Source: an uncultured Clostridia bacterium
GTDB taxonomy: Bacteria; Bacillota; Clostridia; Christensenellales; HGM11417
Direction of reading: 5' to 3'
NCBI GenBank assembly: GCA_944332455.1
Contig: CALVJY010000002.1
Location: 1 to 64,000 of the forward strand
DNA: 64,000 bases
In this document: positions 12,757 to 52,150 of the stretch, piece by piece
Layout of the letters: the number at the start of each line of letters is the position of its first letter
Numbering within the stretch: the first letter of the stretch is position 1
Notes under the pieces: model-generated
What the model was told of the DNA's origin: nothing
Database searches by the model: none
The model's input: only the letters and a program-made list of their open reading frames with translations
Made by a program: the position numbers and the translations under genes

Positions 12757-13050
12757 CTACTGAAATTTTTCCGCCCATTGCCTGAAAACTTCCAAAATTC
12801 TAAACAATTTGTCCGGATCCCCATCCCCTAAGAAGACATTTCCTTCGACTTTGCAGAACATCCAATCATTTTCTTGATTCATCACGTTAATCTCTTCAAA
12901 AGGTTGATCCTCCAATTCGGTCTCGGCAAGGTCAATGGTTATACTCCATCCAGGATTGTCCAGTGTTTCAATTTTGATTTGATAGCAATGCTCCCAATCT
13001 CCATCGCAATTTGACTTGTACCACTCATTTAACCAATTTACGGCATCCAT
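12757..13050 (-). CDS. Imm53-like immunity protein
   Basis: 97 residues from ATG at 13050 (GGGAGGT upstream). WLNEWYKSNCDGDWEHCYQI followed by KIETLDNPGW and IDL is the pattern I recall for Imm53, an immunity family for polymorphic toxins, and the length fits. It is about 60 percent identical to the copy at 14958-15263, and their 5' ends are nearly identical at the DNA level. An Rhs-core fragment lies directly upstream with no toxin domain between. The longer open frame to 13185 runs through that fragment and a terminator and is not the start. Confidence 0.82.
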   Translation of the reverse strand: MDAVNWLNEWYKSNCDGDWEHCYQIKIETLDNPGWSITIDLAETELEDQPFEEINVMNQENDWMFCKVEGNVFLGDGDPDKLFRILEVFRQWAEKFQ

Positions 13051-13075
13051 TTCATATACCTCCCAACAGTCAAGG

Positions 13076-13136
13076 CACCCCGCCAAAATCCGCCCTCGCT
13101 TCCATTGTAACATATTCCCTCGATATTTGCAAGGAT
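13076..13136 (-). pseudogene. Rhs-core boundary fragment, copy a
   Basis: The minus strand encodes CKYRGNMLQWKRGRILAG, a YD-repeat-type segment (GNPxxYxG..LxWxxGRxL). It lies just before the ribosome site of the Imm53-like gene. The same stretch recurs at 15283, 17094 and 19633. Confidence 0.75.
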
Positions 13137-13139
13137 AAA

Positions 13140-13175
13140 AAGAACAGCGCAACCTCAAAAAAATTGCACTGTTCT
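13140..13175 (-). terminator. Terminator after the PGLYLG gene, copy a
   Basis: AACAGTGCAA / TTGCGCTGTT stem separated by T7, followed by a T-rich tail on the minus strand, directly after the stop at 13182. A near-identical copy is at 17153-17190. Confidence 0.6.
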
Positions 13176-13181
13176 TTCTGT

Positions 13182-13514
13182 TCATGATCCATTGCTGCCG
13201 TTTCCGGCATGATCTCTGCCTAAAAAGCTATCCAGTTCCATGAAAAACTGTTTAAACGCCCCTTCATCACCATAAACCTTGATGAGGATTTGCGACCAAT
13301 GCGCCGTTGTTTTCCTCCCTTGATACTTATCTTCTATATATTCCTGAAAACCTTCAAATATATCAAATTCTTCATCGTGGCAGTCCCCAACGTTTTCGGC
13401 GCAGCCGAACGCATAACCATTGATAAAATGGTTTAAGCCGCACATAGTAGGTGTTCCTAAATACAATCCGGGGGTTTTCTCTATCTTCTTTAACAGCTGA
13501 TATAACTTATTCAT
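13182..13514 (-). CDS. PGLYLG-motif immunity-like protein
   Basis: 110 residues with an AGGAG site. MNKLYQLLKKIEKTPGLYLG followed by a GY helix, then a W-centred helix and FKQFFMELDSFLG. The gene at 17198-17524 is a paralogue, identical over the C-terminal half and divergent in the middle. The gene at 16422-16874 shares the looser pattern (GY ... F..Y ... HW..I ... AF..FF.L.D.F). The family is common in immunity arrays in my recollection, but I cannot give its name. Confidence 0.72.
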   Translation of the reverse strand: MNKLYQLLKKIEKTPGLYLGTPTMCGLNHFINGYAFGCAENVGDCHDEEFDIFEGFQEYIEDKYQGRKTTAHWSQILIKVYGDEGAFKQFFMELDSFLGRDHAGNGSNGS

Positions 13515-13725
13515 TTTTTCTCCTGAATTCTGGTCATCTTTTCCCCTCTCTCCAACTCCATAAAAATCATCTGCCCCATTGCGCTTGCAGTCCGCCCCCT
13601 TCGCTCCAAGACTTTGTCGTCATTCCCTGTCCGGCTGTCTTGTCCACACCTTGCTTACCCGCAGATTCGCACCCTGATGCAAAAGACTCGGCAAGGAGAA
13701 CTGCTCTCCCCTGCAAACTTAAATG
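13515..13725. other. GC-richer spacer
   Basis: No gene supported. The minus-strand frame SFASGCESAGKQGVDKTAGQ suggests a decayed coding tail, perhaps of a toxin, but it has stops and no recognisable domain. Confidence 0.3.
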
Positions 13726-14961: not shown

Positions 14962-15263
14962 CTTTTTGCCTCCTTCAAACTTTCTGCCCATTGCCTGAAA
15001 ATTTCCAAAATCTTGATCAATTTATTCGGATCTCCAGAGCTACTAAAGATATTATTCTCTACTCTGCAAAACAGCCAATCATCCTCGCTGTTATTGATCG
15101 CAATTTTCTCAAAAAATTGATTTTCAAGTTCAGTATCATTCAAATCAATTTTGACCCACCATCCGGGATTGTCCAATGTTTCAATTTTGATTTGATAACA
15201 ATGTTCCCAATCTCCATCGCAATTTGACTTGTACCACTCATTTAACCAGTTTATGACATCCAT
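14958..15263 (-). CDS. Imm53-like immunity protein
   Basis: 101 residues from ATG at 15263, with GGGAGGT upstream. It shares the DGDWEHCYQIKIETLDNPGW core with the 12757-13050 gene; the divergence lies in the C-terminal two thirds. An Rhs-core fragment (LQWKRGQILAG) precedes the ribosome site exactly as in the other copy. The toxin domain normally expected between them is absent, so this is an orphan immunity gene. The family name is from memory. Confidence 0.82.
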   Translation of the reverse strand: MDVINWLNEWYKSNCDGDWEHCYQIKIETLDNPGWWVKIDLNDTELENQFFEKIAINNSEDDWLFCRVENNIFSSSGDPNKLIKILEIFRQWAESLKEAKR

Positions 15264-15282
15264 TTCATACACCTCCCAACAG

Positions 15283-15349
15283 CCAAGGCACCCCGCCAAA
15301 ATCTGCCCTCGCTTCCATTGTAGCACATTCCCCCGATATTTGCAAGGAT
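15283..15349 (-). pseudogene. Rhs-core boundary fragment, copy b
   Basis: Nearly identical to copy a at 13076-13136, encoding CKYRGNVLQWKRGQILAG on the minus strand. Together with the shared Imm53 5' end, this gives a ~180-bp direct repeat (about 12960-13136 and 15165-15349). Confidence 0.75.
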
Positions 15350-15417
15350 TTGGTTTTTGTTTTATAGGGAACGCCGCAATCCCTTAATTTGGAATTGCGG
15401 CGCTCCTTCATTCTCTT

Positions 15418-16314
15418 TCAAATTTCATCATCCTTTGATTTGTCATGGAACTTTGCCAGCTCTGCCTTCACCTCATCGGCCAACTGAAATATTTCCTTCC
15501 AGATCGGAGAAGTCCTGACAAATTTTGCCGAAAACTCAACTTCAGACGAAAAAGCAATATCGCTCAGTTTTCTTATCCGTAAACTCTTCTTCATTCCTTT
15601 TTTGGACAATATTTTGTTGCGATAAAGAGTTTTCAGATTTTCTTTTGTCAAAAACACATAATAATACATGAATTCTTCATATATGCCCCCTGTTAAATCA
15701 ACATCTGAAAGCGATAGTAAGGAACTGCCGCAATTTTCAAAAGCAATTTGAATCTTTTCAAGGATGTCAGAAGCCTTTCTTCCCTCCCTCCTTTTTCGGA
15801 TCGGGCCTTTGCTCCTATTTTCATAAAAGATCAACCCTCTTGCCACAAAGGCTTTGTGCGATCTAAGCGAAACCCCAGTGGTCTTTTCTAACGGGAATTC
15901 TTTTCGCATATAATTTTCAAAATCATACCGAAACGAGTCAAACTCTTTGTGTAAGGCTTTAAGCCAAAGTTTGATCCACTCCCCTTCCGAATAATCTCCA
16001 GGTGAAAAAATTTTGTGATTAATTAGCGTCCTATTACCCTTCCTTGTTTTGCTAACACGTATATCTTTTAAAACCCCTATATCTTCCGGCATGTTTTTAT
16101 AATCATCTTTGGTCTCAAATCGATAATCTTCGTGTATATCTTTGAAACAACAATTATATGAATAACAATATTCTCCCGGACGAAATCTTGCGCCAAACCG
16201 ATACACTCTTATCACAACTCTGTCCAGATTCAAAAAGAATTGATTTCCTATTTTCAGAAATCCATATTCCTGAAACAACTTTGCCGTCAGTTTTAAAAAC
16301 TCATCCCTTTCCAT
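15418..16314 (-). CDS. DUF4304-like two-domain immunity protein
   Basis: 298 residues with AGGAGGAATT before the ATG. Residues 1-110 (LTAKLFQEYGFLKIGNQFFL, then the YNCCFKDIHEDY stretch) resemble DUF4304, found in suspected immunity proteins. Residues ~200-298 form a second domain (CGSSLLSLSDVDLTGGIYEE ... SPIWKEIFQLADEVKAELAK). That domain also occurs alone, frameshifted, at 17665-18034. The last ~150 bp of the two loci are almost identical. So this is either a fusion of two modules, or the other copy is a trimmed derivative. Confidence 0.7.
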   Translation of the reverse strand: MERDEFLKLTAKLFQEYGFLKIGNQFFLNLDRVVIRVYRFGARFRPGEYCYSYNCCFKDIHEDYRFETKDDYKNMPEDIGVLKDIRVSKTRKGNRTLINHKIFSPGDYSEGEWIKLWLKALHKEFDSFRYDFENYMRKEFPLEKTTGVSLRSHKAFVARGLIFYENRSKGPIRKRREGRKASDILEKIQIAFENCGSSLLSLSDVDLTGGIYEEFMYYYVFLTKENLKTLYRNKILSKKGMKKSLRIRKLSDIAFSSEVEFSAKFVRTSPIWKEIFQLADEVKAELAKFHDKSKDDEI

Positions 16315-17011: not shown

Positions 17012-17151
17012 ACTATTGCAGGCCGTGAGGCCCCATCTCCGCATCATTCCGGGCGCATTTCGCCTTCGTCATAGCGGCGGACGTTCCCTCGTACCCCGTC
17101 AGGATCCGTCCTCGCTTCCATTGTAACACATTCCCTCGATATTTGCAAGAA
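17012..17151 (-). pseudogene. Rhs-core boundary fragment, copy c (longer, frameshifted)
   Basis: Encodes CKYRGNVLQWKRGRILTGYE on the minus strand. It continues in another frame with RGNVRRYDEGEMRPE, which corresponds to GNAYRYDGNG of copy d, so a frameshift broke the YD repeat. There is no immunity gene directly downstream; the next is at 16874. Confidence 0.7.
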
Positions 17152-17152
17152 T

Positions 17153-17190
17153 AAAAAAAACAGCGCAACCTCAAAAAAATTGCACTGTTC
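17153..17190 (-). terminator. Terminator after the PGLYLG gene, copy c
   Basis: Same AACAGTGCAA / TTGCGCTGTT stem as at 13140-13175, followed by T8 on the minus strand, eight bases after the stop at 17198. Confidence 0.65.
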
Positions 17191-17197
17191 TTTCTGT

Positions 17198-17524
17198 TCA
17201 TGATCCATTGCTGCCGTTTCCTGCATGATCTCTGCCTAAAAAGCTATCCAGTTCAATAAAAAATTGTTTAAATGCCCCTTCATCACCATAAACCTTGATA
17301 AGAATTTGCGACCAATGCGCCGTTGTTTTCCTCCCTTGATACTTATCCTCTATATATTCCTGAAAACCTTTAAATATTTTATCATCATGATATACTTCAG
17401 AATTTTCTTCACAGCAGAAAATATAACCGCTAAGAAAATAACCTAATCTGAACATAGATGGTCTTCCCAAATATAGTCCGGGCCTCTTCTCTATTTTCTT
17501 TAACAGCTGATATAACTTATTCAT
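17198..17524 (-). CDS. PGLYLG-motif immunity-like protein, second copy
   Basis: 108 residues, GGAGG site before the ATG. MNKLYQLLKKIEKRPGLYLG opens it. The middle (FRLGYFLSGYIFCCEENSEV) differs from the 13182-13514 copy, and from QEYIEDKYQG to the end the two are the same except for one residue. The near-identity runs past the stop into the terminator. This suggests recombination that swaps the central specificity segment while keeping the ends. Confidence 0.72.
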   Translation of the reverse strand: MNKLYQLLKKIEKRPGLYLGRPSMFRLGYFLSGYIFCCEENSEVYHDDKIFKGFQEYIEDKYQGRKTTAHWSQILIKVYGDEGAFKQFFIELDSFLGRDHAGNGSNGS

Positions 17525-17664
17525 TTTTTCCTCCTATATCCTTGTTGTTTTTACAATTCTCTCACCGAGACCATAAAAATCATCTAACCATTGTTGAAGA
17601 GGTAATCCCATTCTATGGATGTTATCGTTTCTTCGTTGGAATTGCGCCAGCCTTTCATCTCTTT

Positions 17665-18034
17665 TCAAATTTCATCATCCTTTGATTTGTCATGGAACTT
17701 TGCCAGCTCTGCCTTCACCTCATCGGCCAACTGAAATATTTCCTTCCAGATCGGAGAAGTCCTGACAAATTTTGCCGAAAACTCAACGTCAGGCGAAAAA
17801 GCAATATCGCTCAATTTTCTTATCCGCAGGCCTTTTTTTAATCGCATCTTTGGAGATAATTTTATTCTTATGGAGTATTTTTAAATTTTCTTCGTTTAGA
17901 TCAGTATACTGAAACATAAAATCTTCATAAATTACACCCTCTAAGTCAAAATCTGAAAGCGATAGTAAGGAACTGCCACAATATTCAAATACATTTTCTA
18001 TCATTTCGTATATTTCTTTATCAAAAGCGTTCAT
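17665..18034 (-). pseudogene. Frameshifted C-terminal-module paralogue
   Basis: Starts at ATG 18034 (AGGTG upstream) and reads FEYCGSSLLSLSDFDLEGVI, homologous to the second domain of 15418-16314. It shifts frame at the A7/T7 run at about 17833-17839. Removing one base gives KDAIKKGLRIRKLSD, matching the paralogue. The last 50 residues (other frame, 17847-17665) are nearly identical to the paralogue. As sequenced, the product would be cut to 81 residues. Confidence 0.7.
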
Positions 18035-18915: not shown

Positions 18916-19458
18916 TTATGAAGGCCTGACCTGCAAATCCCATATCATTTTTTGCACATCATCACCATATATATCCACACTATACGCCGAAATATTATAT
19001 CTGCTTATATTTTTAATAGGGCAAGAAGAAAATTCGGTACAATGTATAGCCAAGTTATGGGAGAGAATAAATGAACCGGTGAAATATTTCTGTATTTCAT
19101 GCAATTCAGATGAGTAAAAGCTCCGATAGATCTTATCCAAATTGCACCCTTTTTCATAGAACAACTTCTGTACAATATTCCCGTCGACTTTTTGTGTTGT
19201 CGGAATGAGTACTGTCACGACTCCGTTGATTTGAAAAGTCTCATTTGCAACAACGATCATTTTATTGTTCTTATCTTCCCAAACAGAAAAAGACTTGTAA
19301 TGATTCTTCTGAATTCTTTCCTCAATTTTCTCGTAAATAGATCCCAACGGTTTTAATTCCTCGTGTATTTCCGGCGAAAAGCCAAAACATAATTTCACAA
19401 AGTCCTTTCTTTTTTCCACCCAAAATATTTCAGTTTCTCTAAAATTGACTTGATCCAT
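18916..19458 (-). CDS. Immunity gene coupled to Rhs tail
   Basis: 180 residues from ATG at 19458 with AGGGGAAAG upstream. The stop of the Rhs tail remnant overlaps this ATG (TGATG), the arrangement expected for a toxin and its own immunity gene. The protein is soluble, starts MDQVNFRETEIFWVEKRKDF and has no recognised domain. The toxin itself is reduced to a few residues, so the inhibitor is now orphaned. Confidence 0.72.
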   Translation of the reverse strand: MDQVNFRETEIFWVEKRKDFVKLCFGFSPEIHEELKPLGSIYEKIEERIQKNHYKSFSVWEDKNNKMIVVANETFQINGVVTVLIPTTQKVDGNIVQKLFYEKGCNLDKIYRSFYSSELHEIQKYFTGSFILSHNLAIHCTEFSSCPIKNISRYNISAYSVDIYGDDVQKMIWDLQVRPS

Positions 19459-19742
19459 CAAACTTTCCCCTGTCTGTAGAAAAAATGTACACCTCTTATT
19501 TGACCATTCTGTATCGTCCCCATCTCCTCCCCCAGGATCCGGCCTCCGGACGTGTAATAGCGGTGGACCGCTCCCTCCGCCGTGATCTTTTCCTGCCGGA
19601 TCCCGTTCCCGTCGTAGCGGTAGGCGTTCCCTCCGTACCCCGTCAGGATTCGCCCTCGCTTCCATTGTAGCACATTCCCCCGATATTTGCAAGGATTTCC
19701 CACCCCGTCGTACATTCGACTGTTTGGTGTCCAAAACAAAGA
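19458..19742 (-). pseudogene. Rhs YD-repeat tail, copy d
   Basis: The best-preserved Rhs fragment. The minus strand reads MYDGVGNPCKYRGNVLQWKR, then GRILTGYGGNAYRYDGNGIR and HRYYTSGGRILGEEMG, all typical of Rhs/YD-repeat cores, ending RGVHFFYRQGKV. It is in the same frame as the IS200 tnpA fragment to its right. It ends in a TGATG overlap with the immunity gene. Confidence 0.85.
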
Positions 19743-20105
19743 TATGACCGTATCTACATAATACCCTCGACACCAAAAGTGCCGGTTCCCGTACTTGTAT
19801 TTCAGATTGGCGAATTGATCAAAGATCATCAGACTGCTCTTCCCTTTCAGATATCCCATGAATCCCGATACGCTCATCTTCGGCGGTATACTTACCAACA
19901 TATGCACATGATCCGGACAGATTTCACCTTCTATGATCTCTACTCCTTTCCACGCACACAGCTTCCTCAGAATCTCTCGGATCTCTGCCCTTTTCTCTTC
20001 GAAAAATACTTTCCTCCGATATTTCGGCGCAAACACGATATGATACTTGCAATTCCACTTCGTATGTGCTAAACTATTTGTGATGTTCTTGGACTCGTTC
20101 TCCAT
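19742..20105 (-). pseudogene. tnpA: Truncated IS200/IS605-family TnpA
   Basis: About 120 residues of a Y1 (HUH) single-strand transposase: KYHIVFAPKYRRKVFFEEKR, the HUH motif in CPDHVHMLVSIPPK, and YGNRHFWCRGYYVDTV. The protein then runs straight into Rhs sequence, so the C-terminal helix carrying the catalytic tyrosine is missing and the copy cannot be active alone. The ATG at 20105 is the family start. Insertion and later deletion within an Rhs gene is the likely history. Confidence 0.85.
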
Positions 20106-20741: not shown

Positions 20742-20993
20742 TTAGCCTCTTCCTCGTTCGTTTGATATTTCAGATTCATCCTGCCCTATTTTCGATCCCA
20801 TCCAAAATGCCGCAATTCTGAGCTTCGCCGATATGAACCGGCGTTCCAACTTGATGCCTTCACCCCTGCCGGCAATCCTATTTGCGGTAAGACCGGCGGA
20901 AATCCGCTTTGAGGTAAGACCGGTAAAAATTCGCAAGCCCTCTTTCCTCATGTTGCGCTCAACCAGTGTGCGCCGGAGGGAATTAAAACTCAT
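20742..20993 (-). CDS. Small basic ORF behind a strong ribosome site
   Basis: 83 codons. ATG at 20993 is preceded by AGGAGGACAAACGCAC, an excellent site and spacing. The product is basic, with an internal near-repeat (GLTSKRISAG/GLTANRIAGR). Its stop is three bases before the NTF2-like gene. It might be a translated leader or a genuine small protein; composition is odd and no homologue is recognised. Downstream of the duplicated promoter/leader, copy 1. Confidence 0.5.
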   Translation of the reverse strand: MSFNSLRRTLVERNMRKEGLRIFTGLTSKRISAGLTANRIAGRGEGIKLERRFISAKLRIAAFWMGSKIGQDESEISNERGRG

Positions 20994-21146
20994 GTGCGTT
21001 TGTCCTCCTGCCTGCTTCCGCTTCCGGGCGTTCTGTTCCCACTCTATCAAAATTCTTGCGATCCCGCAAACATTGCCGGACACAACCGCCAAGATCGTCC
21101 GGAGTATGTTCCTTTCTTCCCTTATGGCAAAGCCAAACCCCGGAAA

Positions 21147-21364
21147 CGCAGAGAGAGCAGAATCTTGCGATCCTGCTCTCTCTGCTATGATAAGGGGGAA
21201 AATGATGAGCGATTTTGAAATCTCAGTAGCGGAACGCTTGCCGCAACCTTGATTGTGCCTTTATTATACCACCTTGTGAAAAATTTGTAAAGCGTTTGCG
21301 TGTCGAATTTTAAAATTTTTTCTTCTTCGCAAACAAGACTATTTTTCGCAAAATTTTACCTATT
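21147..21364 (-). repeat. Duplicated promoter/leader element, copy 1
   Basis: About 215 bp, nearly identical to 22017-22235. On the minus strand it carries a consensus promoter. About 80-115 bases further on is a hairpin made of AGAGAGAGCAG and its complement (21150-21186). It serves the 83-codon ORF and the NTF2-like gene. Confidence 0.85.
21263..21291 (-). promoter_or_regulatory. Sigma-A promoter in copy 1
   Basis: TTTACA (21291-21286), 17-base spacer, TATAAT (21268-21263), reading leftward. Confidence 0.85.
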
Positions 21365-21776
21365 TTTGATCCTTGTTGAAACCTGAAGCCTTCAGCAAGC
21401 CGCTGATCTCTCCGAAAGCGCTCAGGGCGATCTCCCCTCGCACGGAAAGGATCTGATCCTGCTGGAACCACCCCCGGGCGCTGAGGCGGACTTGCTGCCG
21501 GTCAATTCTCTGCCAGGTGATCGTCGTCAACGCAGCTTCCCTCTGGGGTTCGCCGTAACAATAAAACTTCCAGACGATCTTTTCTGCGTTTTCGATCCGG
21601 ATCCCCTGATCTGAAAGGACTACCCCCTCCGGCCGAAAGACCCGGCATTCCTCCCCGTCCTCAAAAGACAGGTACAGGCCGTCCTCGTTCAGGAGAAGTT
21701 TTTTCGCAATGTAGGCGTTGTCATGGGGCCTGCCCGGCCCAAATCCCCAGATGCTCAGAGATAAATAGTTTTTCAT
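21360..21776 (-). CDS. Unknown small protein
   Basis: 138 residues from ATG at 21776. The frame is open to 21836 but that part lacks an ATG with a ribosome site. Beta-rich soluble protein (GLYLSFEDGEECRVFRPEGV, EKIVWKFYCYGEPQREAALT) with no recognised domain. Downstream of the second copy of the duplicated promoter/leader element, from which it is probably transcribed. Intermediate base composition between the AT-rich array and the GC-rich core. Confidence 0.65.
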   Translation of the reverse strand: MKNYLSLSIWGFGPGRPHDNAYIAKKLLLNEDGLYLSFEDGEECRVFRPEGVVLSDQGIRIENAEKIVWKFYCYGEPQREAALTTITWQRIDRQQVRLSARGWFQQDQILSVRGEIALSAFGEISGLLKASGFNKDQK

Positions 21777-22016
21777 GGAAAGTCTCTTCTCTCTTTTCGG
21801 GAGCAGCGGACAAAATCCGAACGGCTCCGAAAACAAGTCAGGATATCAGAAAGGATTTGTCCCCGTCTGGAACAGATAGACCGTCCGGGAAAAGACGATC
21901 CTCCTCGACCGGGGCAAGACGGACGAAAAGGGCAATCCCTCCTCGGGGCGAGGCGGTTGGAAAGGAAGGCCGGCAAAGGGGGCAACAGTTGCCTCTTGGA
22001 ACGGGACGCCCCCAAA
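21777..22016. other. Leader between element copy 2 and the gene at 21360
   Basis: GC-rich, no supported gene. ORFs here have no ribosome sites. It would be the 5' untranslated region if the copy 2 promoter drives the gene at 21776. Confidence 0.4.
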
Positions 22017-22235
22017 ACGCAGAGAGAGCAGAATCTTGCGATCCTGCTCTCTCTGCTATGATAAGGGGGAAAATGATGAGCGATTTGAGATCTCAGCCGC
22101 GGAACGCTTGCCGCAACCTTGATTGTGCCTTTATTATACCACCTTGTGAAAAATTTGTAAAGCGTTTGCGTGTCGAATTTTAAAATTTTTTCTTCTTCGC
22201 AAACAAGACTATTTTTCGCAAGATTTTACCTATTT
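22017..22235 (-). repeat. Duplicated promoter/leader element, copy 2
   Basis: Second copy of 21147-21364. A one-base loss near 22085 relative to copy 1 shifts any plus-strand reading frame, so conservation is of DNA or RNA rather than of a peptide. The hairpin lies at about 22020-22056. Confidence 0.85.
22133..22161 (-). promoter_or_regulatory. Sigma-A promoter in copy 2
   Basis: TTTACA (22161-22156), 17-base spacer, TATAAT (22138-22133), reading leftward; identical to copy 1. Confidence 0.85.
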
Positions 22236-22430
22236 TGTGCCCGATTTCCCGCCGAAAAGCCGAAAGGCCGGGTCCAAGGGTCGGAACGGGCCGGACGGCA
22301 GCCGGCTGGAAGGACGAGCGGCATGTCTTTTCAAAACAGCTAAGCCCGGGCGGCCCGACAGGGCGCATCTTCCGGGCCTTTTCGTGCCATGCGGCGCCCG
22401 GGAGGCCGGCATCCGGAGAAGACCGGTCGG

Positions 22431-25489: not shown

Positions 25490-25765
25490 TTACTCGCGGT
25501 GCCTGAAGGCACACCCTGTACGCCCAGGCGGCGTCGCCGCCCGGAAGGCAGGCCCAGGTGCCGGCGGCACCGGGCGATACGCCCACTCCCGGCTAACCGA
25601 AAAATGGGCTGATCGTTCCTGCAATGGGATTATGTCGATATGCGAGGCTAAGCCTCGCTCGATATATGGCCTGGCGGCCATTCGATATGCAAGGCTTTGC
25701 CTTGCTCGATATGTGCCACAACGTGGCACGTTTTGGATAGACAACATCAATAAAAAATGATATGT
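25490..25765 (+). repeat. Hairpin element family A
   Basis: It starts with the GTGCCTGAAGGCAC hairpin. After a GCCCACTC / GTTCCTGC middle part come four different small hairpins (GCGAGGC/GCCTCGC, TGGCC/GGCCA, CAAGGC/GCCTTG, GTGCCAC/GTGGCAC) joined by TCGATAT linkers. It ends GTTTTGGATAGAC. ORFs through it are repeat translations. Confidence 0.8.
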
Positions 25766-25865
25766 CCGTTCCAATTGCTTGGATGCCGCCGGCACCTTTT
25801 TGTACGCCCACACAAATTTAAAATCAGAATCAACCTTGGTTCCCTGCACTTATTTTTGAGAGAGA

Positions 25866-26645
25866 AAAACGCGCAGAGCCACATAAAAAATCGGAGGCCG
25901 GAAAAAATCCGGTCTCCGAACGGTTATGCGGTTTATTAAACTTAAACACTTTCGCAGGAGAAGAAGAAGGCTCCCACTCTCCAATGGAGTGGGCGTTCCC
26001 GCCCGGCGGCGCTGCCGCCCGGTTTGTCTTTCAAGCCCGACCGATTTTTGCGAAGCAAAAATCGGTCGGAACTCAAATCTGTTTTCGCAAAACGGCGGAC
26101 ATGCGCCGCCGTTTTGCACGATCGAAAATTTACGGTGAGTAAATTTTCGGGCGGAAAGAGGTGAATCAAAAGGCACAGCCTTTTGAGAGGGGAAAAACGT
26201 TGCAGAGCTTTGCCACAGGCAAAGCGAACAACGGTTGTCCCCTCAAGTCCGGCCAAAATTCGCCAAGGGCGAATTTTGGCCGGAAGCGAAGCGTGTTTCC
26301 GCAAAAGTCCGGACCTGTGCCGGACTTTTGCACGATCGTGGCTTTGCGGTGAGCAAAGCCACGGCGGAAAAGAGTGAATCAAAAACGCATCGCGTTTTTG
26401 AGAGAGAAAAACCGCTGCCGAGCTTTCCAAAAAGGAAAGCGAACAGCGGTTTGTCTTTCAAGTCCGGCCGATTTTCGCGTTTAGCGAAAATCGCGCCTGG
26501 TCGGGAAAAAAATGTTTCGCAAAACGGCGGACATGCGCCGCCGTTTTGCACAATCGAAAATTTACGGTGAGTAAATTTTCGGGTGGAAAGGGGTGAATCA
26601 AAAGCCACAGCCTTTTGAGAGGGGAAAAACGTTGCAGAGCGGAAC
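25866..26645 (+). repeat. Hairpin element family B, about three tandem units
   Basis: Each unit has interchangeable stems (for example CGAAAATTTAC/GTAAATTTTCG, CAAAACGGCGG/CCGCCGTTTTG, GCTTTGC/GCAAAGC) set between constant pieces such as GAAAAACGTTGCAGAG and CCCTCAAGTCCGG. The constant pieces repeat about every 200-280 bp. A terminator-like stem TCGGAGGCCGG/CCGGTCTCCGA is at 25891-25919. No gene is supported in 25766-26780. Confidence 0.8.
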
Positions 26646-26647
26646 AA

Positions 26648-26686
26648 AAAATCGGAGACCGAAATAATTTCGGTCTCCGAAAAAAG
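26648..26686 (-). terminator. Terminator of the cysS-rseP gene run
   Basis: A 13-bp stem TCGGAGACCGAAA / TTTCGGTCTCCGA with T6 on the minus strand, 95 bases past the rseP stop. Confidence 0.8.
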
Positions 26687-26780
26687 TTTTCAGGTTCTAC
26701 ATCTCGTTCGCGAACAACGGTTGTTCCCTCAAGTCCGGCTCATTTTTCGCAAAGCGAAAAATGACGTTTGGCCGGAATTT

Positions 26781-42657: not shown

Positions 42658-42890
42658 ATAGTGCCTGAAGGCACACCCTGTACGCCCAGGCGGCAGCGCC
42701 GCCGGGCAACGCGCCCACTCTCGGCTAACCGAAAAATTGGCTGATTGTTCCTGCGAAGGATGAAAGTCGATATGTGCCGCGAGGCGGCACTCGATATGTG
42801 GGCTTGCTCCCACTCGATATGCAAGGCTCCACTACGTTCGCCTTGCTCGATATGTGCCACTTTGTGGCACATTGTGGACGGAAAACATAA
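42658..42890 (+). repeat. Hairpin element family A
   Basis: Starts GTGCCTGAAGGCAC and has the constant GCCCACTC ... GTTCCTGC middle. Four different small hairpins (GTGCCGC/GCGGCAC, GTGGG/CCCAC, CAAGGC/GCCTTG, GTGCCAC/GTGGCAC) are linked by TCGATATG. Same architecture as at 25490 and 51790. Confidence 0.8.
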
Positions 42891-42959
42891 CAGAGAAATT
42901 TATAGACTCGTAACAGATTGCTTTTTACAAAATCTATATATGCACCGGATATGCACCGG

Positions 42960-43411
42960 GCTTTCAATCTCGTGGCGACGATGGCGGACATGCGCCGCCA
43001 TCGGACTCAATCCGACTTTTGCGGTGAGCAAAAGCCGGGGTGGAAAAGGGTGAATCAAAAGGCAAAGCCTTTTGAGAGGGGAAAAACGTTGCAGAGCTTT
43101 GCCAAAGGCAAAGTGAACAACGGTTGTCCCCTCAAGTCCGACCGATTTTGCCGCAGGCAAAATCGCGCCTGATCGGAAAAGCGAAGTGTTTTCGCAAAAG
43201 TCCGGACCTGTGCCGGACTTTTGCACGATCGAAAATTTACGGTGAGTAAATTTTCGGCGGAAAAGAGTGAATCAAAAACGCACAGCGTTTTTGAGAGAGA
43301 AAAACCGCTGCCGAGCTTTCCAAAATGGAAAGCGAACAGTGGTTTGTCTTTCAAGCCCGGCTCATTTTCCGCCATCGGCGGAAAATGACGTTTGGCCGGA
43401 AGCGAAGCGCT
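42960..43411 (+). repeat. Hairpin element family B
   Basis: TTTCAATCTCGT, the GATGGCGG/CCGCCATC hairpin, GAAAATTTAC/GTAAATTTTC, GAAAAACGTTGCAGAG and CCTCAAGTCCG modules in the usual order, following a family A element by ~70 bases. Confidence 0.8.
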
Positions 43412-43600
43412 TTATTTCGCCTCGTTCATCATCTTGACCAGGGCCTCGGGATCCTGGCCGTGCACGGCGGCGGCTTCCTCCACGGTCTCGCCGTGGGCCA
43501 TGGCGCAGCCCAGGCAGTGCATGCCGACGTTCATCAGCACTTCGGCCGCAGCGGGGTTGATGGAAAGAGCTTCCTTAATGGTCATTTCCTTGGTGATCAT
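43412..43600 (-). CDS. DUF1858-domain protein
   Basis: 62 residues: MITKEMTIKEALSINPAAAE, then VLMNVGMHCLGCAMAHGETV with the CxGC pair. This is the complete DUF1858 domain, related to small hybrid-cluster- or nitrite-reductase-associated proteins and thought to bind metal or ligands. Start at 43600 with AGAGAGG upstream. It sits alone between two family B repeat blocks. Confidence 0.9.
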   Translation of the reverse strand: MITKEMTIKEALSINPAAAEVLMNVGMHCLGCAMAHGETVEEAAAVHGQDPEALVKMMNEAK

Positions 43601-43649
43601 GTTGATATACCTCTCTGAAAAATTATTTTTTGACTTGTTTGCAAAATAC

Positions 43650-44066
43650 CGCTCACGCGCAGGCTTTCCATCTCGTCGCGACGATGGCGGACATGCGCCG
43701 CCATCGGACTCAATCCGACTTTTGCGGTGAGCAAAAGTCGGGGTGGAAAAGGGTGGGTGCCTGAGGCACCTTGCAAGTACGCCCACACGAAGCGAAATGA
43801 AAAAGCTAAAGATTTAATTCCCTGCACTTGCCTTTGAAAGGGGAAAAACACGGCAGAGCTTTGTCAAATGAAAACCTGTTCCAGGAAAAACAACCGGGTT
43901 TCCCTTTCAGACAGCGTGGGCGTTCTCGCCCGGCGGCGCTGCCGCCTTGTCCCCTCAAGTCCGGCTCATTTTTCGCAGAGCGAAAAATGACGTCTGGCCG
44001 GAAGCGAAGCGCCTTTCAAGTCCGACCGATTTTGCCGCAGGCAAAATCGCGCCTGGTCGGAATAAA
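43650..44066 (+). repeat. Hairpin element family B with partial A pieces
   Basis: TTTCCATCTCGT and the GATGGCGG hairpin, a GGGTGCCTGAGGCACC hairpin, GAAAAACACGGCAGAG, CGGCGGCGCTGCCGCC and TTTTGCCGCAGGCAAAA stems. A scrambled version of the same modules. No gene supported. Confidence 0.75.
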
Positions 44067-51789: not shown

Positions 51790-52015
51790 TGTCTGTTCCT
51801 GGGCGGCAGGCGGCATCGCCGCCGGGCAATACGCCCACTCGTATGGAGTGGAAAAATGAACTTTATTTCCTGCAATAAGTTTCTGTCGATATGTGCCGCT
51901 TCGCGGCACTTGATATATGGCCTGACGGCCATTCGATATGCAAGGCTCCACTATGCTCGCCTTGCTCGATATGTGCCGTTTCACGGCACGTTTTGGACAG
52001 ACCTCATAACAGAGA
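51790..52015 (+). repeat. Hairpin element family A
   Basis: GCCGGGCAATACGCCCACTC and GTTTCTGTCGATATG precede four different hairpins (GTGCCGC/GCGGCAC, TGGCC/GGCCA, CAAGGC/GCCTTG, GTGCCG/CGGCAC) linked by GATAT, ending TTTTGGACAGAC. Upstream of the dehydrogenase on its strand. Confidence 0.8.
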
Positions 52016-52049
52016 ACTTTGTAGGCTCCTTCCAATTGCTCTTTCCCTC

Positions 52050-52150
52050 AAAGTCTATCCTCGCACCAGGCTTCCAATCTCGTCGTGTCGATGGCGGGGC
52101 GGCTCATTTTCCGCCACCGGCGGAAAATGACGTCTGGCCGGAAAATTTCC
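52050..52150 (+). repeat. Hairpin element family B, short
   Basis: TTCCAATCTCGTCG with GATGGCGG, then CATTTTCCGCC / GGCGGAAAATG stem and ACGTCTGGCCGG. It directly follows the family A element, the same composite order as at 42.7-43.4 kb. Confidence 0.75.

Follow-up and report, generated by a model that had tools for sequence, protein, structure and literature searches.

On the evidence of its sequence, the duplicated stretch described here holds a small RNA gene in two copies, a gene not catalogued before that recurs in many species of one bacterial order. Each copy is probably a free-standing gene for a trans-acting sRNA of ∼ 110 nt, one of an order-wide family, whose exposed middle would pair with translation start sites, and this appears to be the best-supported reading of the computations presented below. 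An earlier note on this DNA had proposed either a small-RNA gene copied twice or a shared attenuating leader; the first idea is supported, and is here extended to an order-wide family, while the leader idea is unsupported.

Two gene copies on the minus strand

The window, that is the whole 64-kb stretch of DNA analysed, contains copy A at positions 22009–22236 and copy B at 21138–21366, both read on the minus strand. Pairwise alignment gave 96.9% identity over 229 columns, which bears out the duplication and makes it slightly longer than the ∼ 215 bp originally claimed. The promoter sequence TTTACA-N17-TATAAT, correctly attributed to both copies by the earlier note, is located at 22133–22161 in copy A and at 21263–21291 in copy B; these minus-strand sites are the only two exact matches to the pattern in the 64-kb window, against an expectation from shuffled sequence of 0.00. 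This sigma-70-type promoter would drive the synthesis of a minus-strand RNA of ∼ 110–115 nt, predicted to span 22014–22128 in copy A and 21143–21258 in copy B if the start is placed from the –10 box and the end from the terminal hairpin, where the RNA is expected to finish. The two predicted RNAs fold with z-scores of –5.5 (A) and –5.7 (B) relative to dinucleotide shuffles, and none of 200 shuffles equalled them.

The predicted RNAs share a three-part architecture. A 5′ stem-loop occupies 22090–22123 in copy A, with 11 pairs, and 21220–21253 in copy B, where there is one internal U-U mismatch. This is followed by an invariant core, GCUCAUCAUUUUCCCCCUUAUCAUA, at 22057–22081 (copy A) and 21186–21210 (copy B), which is predicted to be unpaired and is the proposed seed. 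The terminal hairpin, at 22019–22056 in copy A and 21148–21185 in copy B, comprises 17 bp and is followed by GTTTT and GTTTC respectively. A hairpin at this position had been noticed before and is indeed present in both copies, but the 11-bp stem ascribed to it was too short, since the arms are 17 nt long and 94% complementary.

Copy A lies upstream of a gene for a protein without a Pfam match; copy B is followed by a 116-aa ORF, which likewise has no counterpart in Pfam, and by a gene for a SnoaL-like (NTF2-type) protein. Two tandem 27-nt units that are 85% alike were observed within the 116-aa ORF, at 20870–20923.

Copies in the source genome and across the order

A search of the source genome (2.35 Mb in 53 contigs) identified five full copies and a sixth that is degenerate. 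The three full copies outside the window are C6:37595 (84% identity), C6:66703 (83%) and C6:66051 (79%); the degenerate site, C5:68333, retains a hairpin and, apart from one mismatch, the core, but is without a recognisable TATAAT. In every full copy a promoter of the sigma-70 type (TTTACA or TTGACA, 17 nt, TATAAT) is followed by a 5′ stem-loop, the invariant unpaired block GCUCAUCAUUUUCCCCCUUAUC and a terminal hairpin of 17–23 bp that displays compensatory changes. The –35 element is a perfect TTGACA in both copies near 66 kb on C6. Across the five, the –10 TATAAT and the core are invariant and the remainder has diverged.

When the five full copies were aligned, 97.8% of the 137 pair cells were paired, compared with 37–53% when the partner strand was slid, and five pairs had changed on both sides, compared with none or one in the slid controls. 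The covariation score was reached by none of 500 shuffles. All five double changes fall within the terminal hairpin (5 of 17 pairs). In the 5′ stem 98.1% of cells are paired, with six pairs varying on one side and none on both. The core is partly paired in the predicted fold of two of the five copies. The bases that follow the terminal stem (GTTTT, GTTTC, CGGGA, TCTTC and TATTC) do not form a long U-tract in any of the five, which makes termination in this genome less certain than in the relatives.

The surroundings of the copies bear on whether the RNA could instead be a common 5′ leader or attenuator of the genes that follow it. Both copies in the window do point at minus-strand ORFs, and 65 of 110 loci from other species have their next downstream ORF in the same orientation; however, in the other 45 it is on the opposite strand, and in the source genome C6:66051 and C6:37595 each run into a convergent, opposite-strand gene. 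The former faces the 3′ end of what we take to be a tRNA nucleotidyltransferase-like gene, and the latter presumably a small membrane protein gene. In addition, terminator-like hairpins, often with U-tracts, come after the core in relatives. The leader was rejected because of the convergent neighbours, and this explanation, largely refuted, is considered very unlikely. The variety of the neighbours, and the frequency with which they face the other way, points rather to a free-standing RNA gene. The commonest neighbour family, found at 27 of 113 loci (for example L040), is presumably SpmB-like, and a tie to sporulation is possible in part of the order.

It could also be asked whether the stretch is a small mobile repeat, such as a MITE or an IS200-associated REP-like element, with an incidental promoter. 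Copies are dispersed in one genome, some of them are recent (97%), and copy B has an IS200-like Y1 transposase ∼ 1.1 kb away. Against this, the genome contains just two Y1 transposases, and the closest copy on the contig of the second one is 28 kb away; their positions do not track those of the copies. Moreover, across genera only the parts of the RNA are conserved while flanks, promoters and hairpins diverge, most carriers have a single copy, and a search of viral contigs for the core gave no match. On the strength of the varied neighbours, the transposase positions and the viral-contig result this reading was rejected, and it retains hardly any credibility. Nor are the copies conserved only within an insertion sequence, an outcome the earlier note had raised, as neighbours, promoters and terminators differ across many genera.

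Other repeated sequences were observed in the window. The Y1 transposase ORF near copy B, at 19458–20105 on the minus strand (Pfam PF01797, 129 bits), is one of the two in the genome. A repeat family at 12768–13572, 14981–15741, 17067–17989 and 19610–19698 is 81–92% alike, and its short common piece also occurs within the frame of this transposase ORF near 19.6 kb. A second family of dispersed repeats, at 1–490, 25499–26777, 42661–44062 and 51807–52143, is 72–97% alike, and its members lie in several orientations.

The free-standing sRNA gene is widespread among relatives. Using blastn, 18 of 60 relatives gave a match, mostly over 25–44 nt around the core, and most of the matched places have a promoter-like sequence of their own before the core and, after it, a hairpin resembling an intrinsic terminator. 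A scan of GTDB r220 for the exact 21-mer core returned at least 117 stretches in other genomes. The matches listed carry the labels Clostridia, Clostridiales, Firmicutes or Eubacteriales, one being a contig labelled Roseburia sp., and those named among them include Candidatus Borkfalkia, Candidatus Protoclostridium and the cultured Pumilibacter intestinalis, whose copy is locus L059. We take these three genera to belong to one GTDB order, and by the named matches the order would be Christensenellales-type Clostridia; in NCBI taxonomy Borkfalkia belongs to Christensenellales and Pumilibacter to Eubacteriales, and Protoclostridium is listed under Clostridia incertae sedis.

Of 396 genomes sampled evenly across the order, 143 contain the core with no more than two mismatches, whereas a reversed-pattern control was present in none. 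Inspection of a subset of the sites showed that those in G015, G029 and G378 fall on gene starts or within coding sequence and are not the sRNA, and their removal leaves about 140 carriers. A class-level sample of 291 genomes consisted of 14 from the order, including the source genome, and 277 from outside it; none of the 277 has the core within two mismatches. Uninspected core-like sites with three mismatches were found in eight of the 277, against one for the control. Most carriers in the order sample have a single copy; tandem multiplication has occurred elsewhere, with three copies 233–266 bp apart in G212 and pairs in G281, G136, L046, L097, L126 and L143. The core exists in two variants, which contain CAUCAU or CAUAAU.

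The anatomy of the family was examined with 165 unique sites within three substitutions of the core, of which L036 and L077 were dropped because they lack a hairpin, leaving 163. As these sites were chosen by the core, its conservation among them is partly circular. The six bases that follow, however, lie outside the search pattern and are also strongly conserved: C in 137, A in 150, U in 162, A in 162, U in 127 and A in 126 of the 163 copies. The terminal hairpins are strong throughout, with a mean z of –6.8 and z below –2 in 99% of copies, and their stems have a median length of 18 bp. Between copies, however, the first 13 stem bases agree at just 29%, and the hairpins of distant copies align poorly; the structure has thus been preserved through changes in sequence. 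The 5′ domain is less structured, with a mean z of –1.9 and 45% of copies below –2. Promoter scores of at least 10 out of 12 were obtained for 87 of the 117 copies listed, compared with 8.4 expected from shuffled upstream sequence. Over the same 117 copies the core is unpaired with a mean probability of 0.81, compared with 0.46 and 0.31 for its flanks; the core value exceeds 0.8 in 62% of copies and is 0.8 or less in 38%, with a minimum of 0.22.

At least four U residues occur in the eight bases after the stem in 63% of the 163 copies, whereas the corresponding run on the opposite strand reaches this number in 12%, and this excess indicates the direction of the sRNA. It also bears on the idea that the opposite strand is what is conserved, as a short ORF with the Shine-Dalgarno sequence AAGGGGG and the start ATGATGAGC. 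The plus strand does offer a good ribosome-binding site and an ATG, but at eight tandem or variant sRNA sites the frames stop after 2–44 codons and are mostly unrelated, and the promoter and U-tract indicate the other strand. Furthermore, the frame shift that separates the two window copies on the plus strand, on which the earlier note based its rejection of a conserved peptide, is real, and the copies therefore share no peptide. Given the short, unrelated frames and the frame shift, coding on either strand was rejected, and the probability left to a conserved short ORF is close to negligible.

The unpaired core and its candidate targets

The unpaired middle of the RNA reads GCUCAU(C/A)AUUUUCCCCCUUAUCAUA. 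Its reverse complement, AUAAGGGGGAAAAU(G/U)AUGAGC, has the form of a translation start site, with a Shine-Dalgarno sequence in AUAAGGGGG (AAGGGGG), a six-base spacer, AUG and the serine codon AGC. The AUG that is common to both core variants is the one at the proper spacing. The core would most likely pair with mRNAs bearing a G-rich Shine-Dalgarno sequence, and such pairing probably blocks ribosome entry in the manner of the csRNAs and LhrC.

In order to place this mirrored start site among real ones, 163 start sites backed by homologous N-termini in the collected loci were used as a reference. The anti-core scored at the 85th percentile of these for the U variant and at the 50th for the commoner G variant; its score was reached by 0.2% of composition shuffles for the rarer U variant and by 4.9% for the commoner G variant. 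GGGGG occurs in five of the 163 real sites and AGGAG in 47, so that perfect pairing would be limited to a minority of genes.

Within the source genome, a 22-nt anti-core with up to three mismatches matched the six copies only, and the idea of one fixed full-length target there was rejected. A 16-nt anti-core with at most one mismatch matched the six copies and a single other site, C36:17814 (15/16), which falls exactly on a gene start and is a candidate target; the gene is presumably MBL-fold hydrolase-like. A second candidate is C4:117412, encoding an 86-aa protein, for which the predicted pairing extends to either side of the start (–28.2 kcal/mol). In another genome, the 362-aa gene G058:C9 is a near-perfect candidate, with a 20/21 match to its own genome's core. 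Among 28 homologues of this gene the closest, at 92% identity, retains the greater part of the match, and the others mostly have ordinary start sites, so a target conserved by orthology was rejected in this case. There is likewise no genome-wide footprint on AAGGGGG start sites: their ratio to AAGGAGG sites has a median of 0.23 in 20 genomes with the sRNA and 0.21 in 41 genomes without it (p = 0.90).

This last result can be read in favour of a real RNA whose core is a protein-binding site rather than an mRNA seed, either as a sponge of the CsrB or 6S type or as a ligand of a C-rich or CU-rich RNA-binding protein. The multi-copy state of some genomes would fit titration, and the ∼ 25 nt that are nearly invariant over the order exceed the needs of Shine-Dalgarno pairing, which would allow for a protein partner. 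However, the reverse complement of the core is a start site with the correct spacing and a start codon, and the core is without repeated motifs, which known sponge RNAs carry. A protein site in place of a seed is accordingly judged unlikely, if far from negligible. Returning to the anti-start-site sRNA, it is possible, if on balance doubtful, that evolution has fixed the ∼ 25-nt core as an idealised start site in reverse complement, with Shine-Dalgarno sequence, spacer, AUG and second codon, and that it acts as a general, Hfq-independent brake on a class of G-rich start sites, the copy number having expanded in this lineage to tune the dose.

Matches to Hfq were compared in 31 genomes (G000–G030), 11 of which carry the sRNA. 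Six of these carriers gave no Hfq match and five a weak one (45–63 bits), and the absence in six of 11 indicates that Hfq is not generally required. All seven strong matches (79–111 bits) were in genomes without the sRNA, an exclusion among these 31 genomes that may reflect common ancestry only.

Relation to known small RNAs

Searches of Rfam 15 did not connect the sRNA with a known RNA family. Only three tRNAs were found in the 64-kb window at the gathering cut-off, and for 11 RNA-bearing loci searched with E up to 1 the three sub-threshold matches all lay off the RNA. The open-access literature on the order's sRNAs and on the core sequence, a scope outside which most subscription journals and preprints fall, yielded nothing relevant, and the csfG papers listed concern other sporulation sRNAs only.

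By analogy, the design matches most closely that of the csRNAs, and then those of LhrC and RsaE/RoxS. The CiaRH-dependent csRNAs of Streptococcus have an unpaired region, complementary to the Shine-Dalgarno sequence and AUG, between two stem-loops, occur as 2–6 paralogues per genome at variable genomic locations, and have CiaR-type promoters (two TTTAAG direct repeats) and a surprising sequence diversity between species (PMC3091779). The present sRNA shares the unpaired anti-Shine-Dalgarno and anti-AUG region between two stem-loops and the several paralogues at variable locations, but it belongs to another order and has ∼ 25 nt that are nearly invariant over that order, whereas the csRNAs are diverse. 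No homology between the two is apparent, and on reading the aligned upstream sequence of the source genome's copies no TTTAAG pair was seen, but instead TTTACA/TTGACA-17-TATAAT.

LhrC1-5 of Listeria monocytogenes is also multi-copy, LisRK-controlled and equipped with CU-rich sites that block the Shine-Dalgarno sequence, with a single strand between two stem-loops and three redundant UCCC motifs, of which two lie in loops (PMC4132741). The multiple copies and the C-rich single strand between stem-loops are common to both RNAs, but the sRNA has one C-rich site in a long single-stranded core rather than three UCCC motifs. RsaE/RoxS of Staphylococcus and Bacillus has conserved C-rich regions able to pair with G-rich Shine-Dalgarno sequences, as the sRNA does, but there are several such regions and their sequence is another one (PMC4409812). 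On the tests made, the sRNA is a separate family and a member of none of these three.

Base-pairing sRNAs usually drift fast, and to our knowledge few are conserved across an order of Firmicutes. Here, ∼ 140 of the genomes sampled, from a lineage of gut and digester bacteria that is largely uncultured, share a near-invariant core in an RNA that has no Rfam entry. The sRNA offers a defined RNA, promoter, structure and core with which regulation at start sites, including action without Hfq, may be tested.
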